DNA from: an uncultured Sphingobacteriales bacterium
GTDB lineage: Bacteria > Bacteroidota > Bacteroidia > Chitinophagales > Chitinophagaceae
DNA length: 64,000 nt
Direction of reading: 5' to 3'
Assembly (NCBI GenBank): GCA_937871285.1
Contig: CALMQS010000096.1
Location: 1 to 64,000 of the forward strand
Part shown: positions 21,466-21,692 of the stretch, in pieces
Position numbering within the stretch: the first letter of the stretch is position 1
How the letters are laid out: the number at the start of each line of letters is the position of its first letter
The notes under the pieces: model-generated
Database searches by the model: none
What the model was told of the DNA's origin: nothing
The model's input: only the letters and a program-made list of their open reading frames with translations
Translations under genes and position numbers: made by a program

Positions 21466-21692
21466 TGTTACAACTGTTACAAATTATTATATTTTCCTCT
21501 AAAAATAAGTATAGTAAAGGGTTTGAGCATGTAACAGCAATTTTACATAGTCCATTTACTGTTACAATTTGTTACAAGTCGTTACAACTATATATTACTT
21601 TGTAACAGTGTTGTAACAATGTGCTGTTACAAGGTTTTGGAGTATAGAAACCAATACCAGCAAGGGTTTTAAAATTTTGTAACAGTGTAACA
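21466..21692. repeat. Iteron-like array of TGTTACA/TGTAACA; candidate replication origin
   Basis: Eleven copies lie in 227 bp, ten of them exact. TGTTACA starts at 21466, 21475, 21560, 21570 and 21625; TGTAACA starts at 21530, 21601, 21612, 21678 and 21686; one variant CGTTACA starts at 21580. The array is AT-rich and holds no gene. Such clusters act as initiator-binding iterons or multi-site operators. The presence of a P4-alpha-like primase-helicase makes an origin the favoured reading, by inference. Confidence 0.7.

Follow-up and report, generated by a model that had tools for sequence, protein, structure and literature searches.

A heptamer array as the very probable iteron-type replication origin of a tRNA-integrated element, apparently a reduced prophage or phage satellite, in an uncultured Sphingobacteriales bacterium

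In a 64,000-nucleotide stretch of DNA from an uncultured Sphingobacteriales bacterium (contig CALMQS010000096.1; hereafter the window), a dense array of heptamers is very probably a replication origin of the iteron type, belonging to what looks like a reduced prophage or a phage satellite and read by the primase-helicase that the same element encodes. We hold this view because like arrays lie 3' of the same primase-helicase gene in dozens of otherwise unrelated Bacteroidota elements. By analogy with known systems, we infer an origin of the PICI-like type, with self-encoded initiator and iterons. The preliminary description of this DNA had already taken the array for an origin, and comparison now supports that reading: array and gene occur together in many unrelated elements, the array is nearly always on the 3' side, its motif appears to track the helicase, and its geometry is partly kept.

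Results

A dense array of directional heptamers

Between positions 21466 and 21692, the heptamer TGTTACA (TGTAACA on the opposite strand) occurs ten times exactly, starting at 21466, 21475, 21560, 21570 and 21625 on the forward strand and at 21530, 21601, 21612, 21678 and 21686 on the reverse strand, and once as the variant CGTTACA at 21580, giving 11 repeats in 227 bp, counted and placed as in the preliminary description. The density had been called far beyond chance, and this is borne out by 300 dinucleotide-preserving shuffles of the window, which yielded at most two copies per 227 bp, compared to the ten exact ones in the array. These ten belong to a total of 17 copies on either strand of the window, and within the element that carries the array there is no copy besides the array's own. 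A genome-wide count, proposed earlier as a check, gave 675 copies in 5.318 Mb, or about one per 7.9 kb. Close pairs had been pointed out too, and all four same-orientation pairs with a 1–6 bp spacer in the genome lie in the array. Copies do sit on both strands, as had been stated, but TGTTACA is a near-palindrome (TGT-N-ACA), so that its orientation depends on the centre base and the flanks; it takes the wider consensus YTGTTACAa, obtained from 131 sites in related arrays, to give every copy a direction.

The array stands in a stretch without genes between 21291 and 22168, following a terminator-like hairpin as originally described, and Rfam detected no RNA family at 19900–22300. Within the array, the left iteron pair is set apart from all remaining iterons by an A+T-rich gap (Table 1). 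Terminator-like hairpins stand on both sides, an arrangement more in keeping with an insulated cis site than with a promoter.

Table 1. Features of the integrated element and of the heptamer array, in window coordinates
Feature	Position	Strand	Basis
attL, repeating 50 bp from the 3' portion of tRNA-Val	13375..13424		direct repeat, 98% identical to 28520-28569
Tyrosine integrase (Arm-DNA-bind_5, Phage_int_SAM_5, Phage_integrase)	13579..14886	+	Pfam
HTH_17 / excisionase-like protein	15988..16362	+	Pfam and PHROGs
Proposed initiator, a primase-helicase with DnaG-type Toprim primase, SF3 (DUF5906) helicase and winged-helix-like C-terminal domain	16388..18940	+	Pfam and AlphaFold2 model
Three genes without assigned function (18988-19986, 20476-20991, 20997-21290)	18988..21290	+	no match in Pfam, PHROGs
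Terminator-like hairpin preceding the array	about 21317..21352	+	by eye from the sequence
Whole iteron array, proposed replication origin	21466..21692		repeats and comparison
Left outer pair of iterons (>>), starts 9 bp apart	21466..21481		motif positions
A+T-rich gap (48 bp, 77% A+T), candidate melting region	21482..21529		base composition
Single inverted iteron	21530..21536	-	motif position
Six iterons forming the inner block (21560, 21570, 21580 CGTTACA, 21601-, 21612-, 21625)	21560..21631		mostly 10-13 bp apart
Right outer pair of iterons (<<), starts 8 bp apart	21678..21692	-	motif positions
Two terminator-like hairpins between array and next gene (21803-21820, 21951-21970)	21803..21970	+	hairpin search: 5 found, 1.5 expected
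S49 head-maturation protease	22169..23566	+	Pfam PF01343; phrog_53 E 7.9e-45
Tape-measure protein, oriented against the remainder of the element	23911..28116	-	phrog_25337 E 3.1e-87
attR, inside tRNA-Val (28521-28596, minus strand)	28520..28569		direct repeat

An apparent reduced prophage or satellite at tRNA-Val

The array is part of a 15.2-kb element integrated at tRNA-Val, in which the tyrosine integrase is followed by an unassigned gene, the HTH_17 gene, the primase-helicase gene, three further unassigned genes, the array, the S49 protease gene, a small unassigned gene and, on the opposite strand, the tape-measure gene. The true start of the last is probably near 27963; a perfect 17-bp inverted repeat (28092–28125) lies beside the gene start. 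The protease and the tape-measure protein are the only gene products of their kind in the element: Pfam and PHROGs revealed no terminase, portal or major capsid gene, which distinguishes it from a complete prophage, and no PICI regulator or packaging genes were identified in it either. No helper prophage was found in the same genome by way of tape-measure or primase homologues. Homologues of the protease and the tape-measure protein do occur in three other genomes (G009, G066 and G070), whose prophages carry the same primase; they are located between array and primase in G009, about 11 kb beyond the primase in G066 and on a separate contig in G070. Given homologues in complete prophages that carry this replicon as well, the element appears to be a prophage in reduced form or else a satellite that arose from such a prophage.

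The primase-helicase and its C-terminal domain

The proposed initiator combines a primase with an SF3 helicase, according to both Pfam and an AlphaFold2 model (pLDDT 87.8). In VIA-align comparisons of this model, residues 16–336 matched DnaG RNA-polymerase domains with Z-scores of about 12–13 (12.9 for one of them), residues 348–733 matched the NrS-1 structure 6k9c with a Z-score of 25.9, and SaPI5 Rep (7om0) was recovered with a Z-score of 18.0; a separate search also gave NrS-1 as the closest solved helicase part (E 1e-16). As modelled, the protein is thus a DnaG-type primase fused to an SF3 helicase of the NrS-1/SaPI5-Rep type. Its helicase has the Walker-A residue K509. Its C-terminal domain, about residues 652–818, modelled alone (pLDDT 91.5), gave no significant Foldseek match, and its VIA-align matches were almost all winged-helix proteins, all of them weak (best Z-score 4.7); a winged-helix fold is likely. 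Short relatives of about 410 residues retain this domain and have arrays, which points to the C-terminal domain or the helicase as the reader; we consider that the winged-helix-like domain probably binds the repeats. A one-residue code relating its recognition helix to the heptamer was sought and not found.

Arrays beside relatives of the primase-helicase

Relatives of the Toprim-DUF5906 protein, 30–45% identical to it, carry dense arrays of TGTTACA or of shifted heptamers. Such relatives are encoded in 15 of 294 genomes of the family, the window's genome included, and the collection was then extended to the order and class level, to named genomes and to IMG/VR contigs. In named genomes and viral contigs, a single-protein query found nothing and an alignment query found relatives; in phage and plasmid records the helicase part alone had relatives, all distant, of which four are on Bacteroides or Phocaeicola plasmids. 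When clustered 7-mers were sought around each gene without a preset motif, TGTTACA itself was recovered at five loci (L026, L027, L029, L064 and L074), and TGTTTCA, AGTTACA, TTTCGGT, TTTAGGT, TGTTGAT and TGATGCA at others; the TGTTTCA arrays include those of L024 and L235, and TGTTGCA is a further variant.

In a first set of 53 neighbourhoods, 19 had at least six copies of a heptamer per 300 bp, compared to three to five at most in 530 shuffles, and every one of the 19 arrays is on the 3' side of the primase-helicase gene. In another set, which shares part of its loci with the first, arrays of at least six copies were downstream at 60 of 65 loci and upstream at five, and clusters of five copies downstream in 38 cases and upstream in four. 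These locus counts include related loci and are not independent events, so that the number of clusters at 60% identity is the fairer one: of 52 primase clusters, 28 are followed downstream by an array of at least six copies and 24 are not in the sequence examined, in some cases because the contig ends; an upstream array is found in five clusters. The distance between array and gene ranges from 0.02 to 4 kb across relatives; in the window it is 2.5 kb, not immediately 3'. The primase-helicase is the sole gene family present at all 19 array loci of the first set, followed by a separate primase gene (7/19), an integrase family (4/19) and HTH_17 (3/19). The primase was the bait with which the loci were collected and is bound to be present at each of them; the informative result is that no other gene co-occurs.

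One genome, G009, has no array near its primase and a TGTTACA array about 37 kb away (C4:148235-148629), among genes that by eye resemble the neighbours of the L024 and L026 arrays. This array would be downstream of the primase once the prophage circle closed, a reading based on gene order and on protein starts that look similar by eye, not on mapped att sites. At four loci (L175, L177, L031 and L032), clusters of four to six TGCTACA/TGTAGCA copies are located upstream of the primase, about 3.4 kb before the primase match end; these are possibly origins in another position.

Co-variation of motif and protein, and partial conservation of geometry

Motif similarity correlates with primase similarity across loci (Mantel rho 0.31, p 0.0004), a figure to which shared ancestry of related elements may contribute. 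The oriented layout of the array recurs as well. In the window it reads >><>>><<><<, with spacings of 9, 55, 30, 10, 10, 21, 11, 13, 53 and 8 bp, and at L238 it reads >><>>>>>><<, with spacings of 9, 56, 29, 10, 11, 10, 13, 11, 52 and 9 bp; three other arrays start with 9, 57, 30 and 10 bp (L155), 9, 57, 30 and 11 bp (L242) and 8, 67, 30 and 10 bp (L156). Among 12 arrays, 4.29 oriented sites matched per pair, compared to 3.18 in 200 shuffles (sd 0.09, maximum 3.45). Compared singly with the window, L238 and L156 are significant and L155 is not, and the likeness to L238 is in part plain sequence similarity; the geometry is therefore best described as partly conserved.

Heptamer clusters in other settings

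TGTTACA is not by itself diagnostic of an origin, since it also clusters at AbiE operators, in minisatellites and at an unrelated AAA_25 module. As a predictor of the primase, a triple TGTTACA pattern was tried and rejected: 40 of the 294 family genomes match it, many of the matches being AbiE operators, coding repeats, minisatellites or the AAA_25 module, and three copies alone thus do not predict an origin. The dense irregular TGTTACA arrays that we examined do fall in primase elements. In the window's own genome (C88 41198-41291, equivalent to L148 4198-4291), as well as at L114, L121 and L135, four to five copies of TGTWACA follow each other at 21–22 bp, mostly in alternating orientation. 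The cluster at L148 immediately precedes a DUF6088/AbiEi-AbiEii toxin-antitoxin pair; it probably serves as an operator that uses the heptamer in another geometry. At L150 (1004-1066), L141 (1501-1554), L132 and L140, six to seven copies of TGTWACA are spaced at 9–10 bp, one orientation being followed by the other; those at L150 and L141 reach into the 3' end of a gene for an unrelated AAA_25 ATPase. These clusters are perhaps a second replication-like module that has arrived at the same heptamer by convergence. At L146 (7630-7830), 12 copies of TGTWACA form part of a tandem minisatellite that lies between two genes, one phosphorylase-like and the other surface-protein-like, and has no relation to any primase.

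Discussion

Alternative functions of the array

If the array is an origin, its repeats could conceivably be read by another element protein that recruits the primase-helicase, for example the 171-aa or the 97-aa product, whose genes have no known function and are placed between primase and array. We regard this as unlikely, since homologues of these genes were not found at other array loci and the arrays at L156, L236 and L240 begin within about 170 bp of the primase match end. Iteron arrays in plasmids also have roles in partition and in incompatibility, that is, copy control, and the window's array could be a site of this kind instead of an initiation site. Pfam and PHROGs revealed no ParA/ParB-like gene in the element, however, and the array follows the gene for an initiator helicase like a PICI origin does, which makes such a role very unlikely.

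The preliminary description had named an operator for the HTH protein as the alternative to an origin, and control of excision or of late genes would be its function. The HTH_17 gene adjoins the primase gene, and TGTTACA arrays are likely operators elsewhere, with five copies at 21–22 bp preceding the AbiEi-AbiEii pair in the same genome. The spacing in the array is nevertheless unlike the AbiE type, no copy is near the integrase or HTH promoters, and terminator-like hairpins intervene between the array and the next gene. Comparison disfavours the operator further: beyond the window, the two other array loci with an HTH_17 gene carry different motifs, and L036 has homologues of both the HTH protein and the integrase but no TGTTACA array. 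We consider this reading highly improbable. A packaging (cos/pac) site or a transposition end has next to no claim, even though the array separates the early genes from the head and tail genes, as the element has no terminase gene, short-helicase elements and the plasmid pBUN1 have a similar array 3' of the helicase without late phage genes nearby, and the att repeats put the ends of integration at 13375 and 28569.

A model for initiation

In favour of an origin read by the primase-helicase, the analysis shows that the repeats exist, that they are linked to the gene for this protein and lie 3' of it, and that their geometry is partly shared, and it adds a predicted fold; repeat recognition, hexamer loading, melting and initiation are the steps that we propose on this basis. 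The element would excise at its tRNA-Val att site, and the primase-helicase would bind the directional heptamers (YTGTTACAa) via its C-terminal winged-helix-like domain. As the outer pairs point inward (>> and <<) and the inner block is situated between A+T-rich gaps, two hexamers could assemble face to face. The SF3 motor might then melt A+T-rich DNA, such as the 48-bp gap, whereupon the fused DnaG-type domain would prime and host enzymes would extend.

Comparison with known replicons

The preliminary description had likened the protein to P4 alpha, a primase-helicase initiator that has a repeat array as its origin. This was right in kind, as both systems pair an initiator primase-helicase with a repeat array; the repeat differs, however, and among solved structures the NrS-1 phage primase and SaPI5 Rep are the closest relatives. 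P4 replication also requires a second site, crr.

In SaPI Rep, the C-terminal domain is reported to recognise iterons directly downstream of its gene (PMC7581432), and PICI origins are reported to have two iteron sets around an A+T-rich region (PMC6092414). PICI and SaPI replicons (SaPI5 Rep, EcCICFT073 pri-rep-ori) thus resemble the window's element in the self-encoded primase-helicase, the downstream iteron array, iteron sets around an A+T-rich region and, probably, DNA recognition through the C-terminal domain (PMC6092414, PMC7581432). They differ from the replicon described here in that the latter has a DnaG-type primase domain, the heptamer YTGTTACAa and a partly conserved 11-site geometry, with the array at variable distance (0.02–4 kb) from the gene, and occurs in Bacteroidota, in our element with no PICI regulator or packaging genes identified. 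NrS-1 (6k9c, 6k9e, 6lrb) offers the closest solved helicase part, but has a PrimPol primase domain (PMC9611036) instead of the DnaG-type one. SCCmec Cch2 is a helicase as well, and its C-terminal domain in isolation binds direct repeats immediately 3' of the Cch2 gene, at a putative origin (PMC7581432); this system has three 5-nt iterons and a separate polymerase and is not phage-like. The Vibrio cholerae satellite PLE relies on a self-encoded initiator, RepA, and iterons (PMC7145576); unlike the protein described here, this initiator is of the RepA_N type, and neither helicase nor primase activity is predicted for it.

A candidate class of matched initiator-origin pairs

On balance, we favour the broader view that prophages, satellites and mobilizable elements of Bacteroidota share a large uncharacterised replicon class, in which a DnaG-type Toprim primase-DUF5906 SF3 helicase reads a heptamer through its C-terminal domain, and in which the heptamer and its reader change in step, the array geometry being retained, giving a predictable family of matched initiator-origin pairs. 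Our searches of the open-access literature returned only unrelated papers for the heptamer and, within the portion accessible to us, no paper on such origins for DUF5906. If the view is correct, the origins of many Bacteroidota phages, satellites and mobilizable elements would be predictable from sequence alone, and DUF5906 primase-helicases would have a suggested function as origin-reading initiators. The natural series of motif and protein variants may reveal how an SF3 initiator reads iterons, and the replicon could serve as a vector for Chitinophagaceae. On pBUN1, a plasmid of Bacteroides uniformis (L042; NZ_AP019725.1 102260-104753), a short DUF5906 helicase gene, a TGATGAA array and a Toprim primase gene are found in a row, in a region that also bears a beta-lactamase gene, suggesting that this type of origin is also present in resistance-carrying mobilizable DNA.
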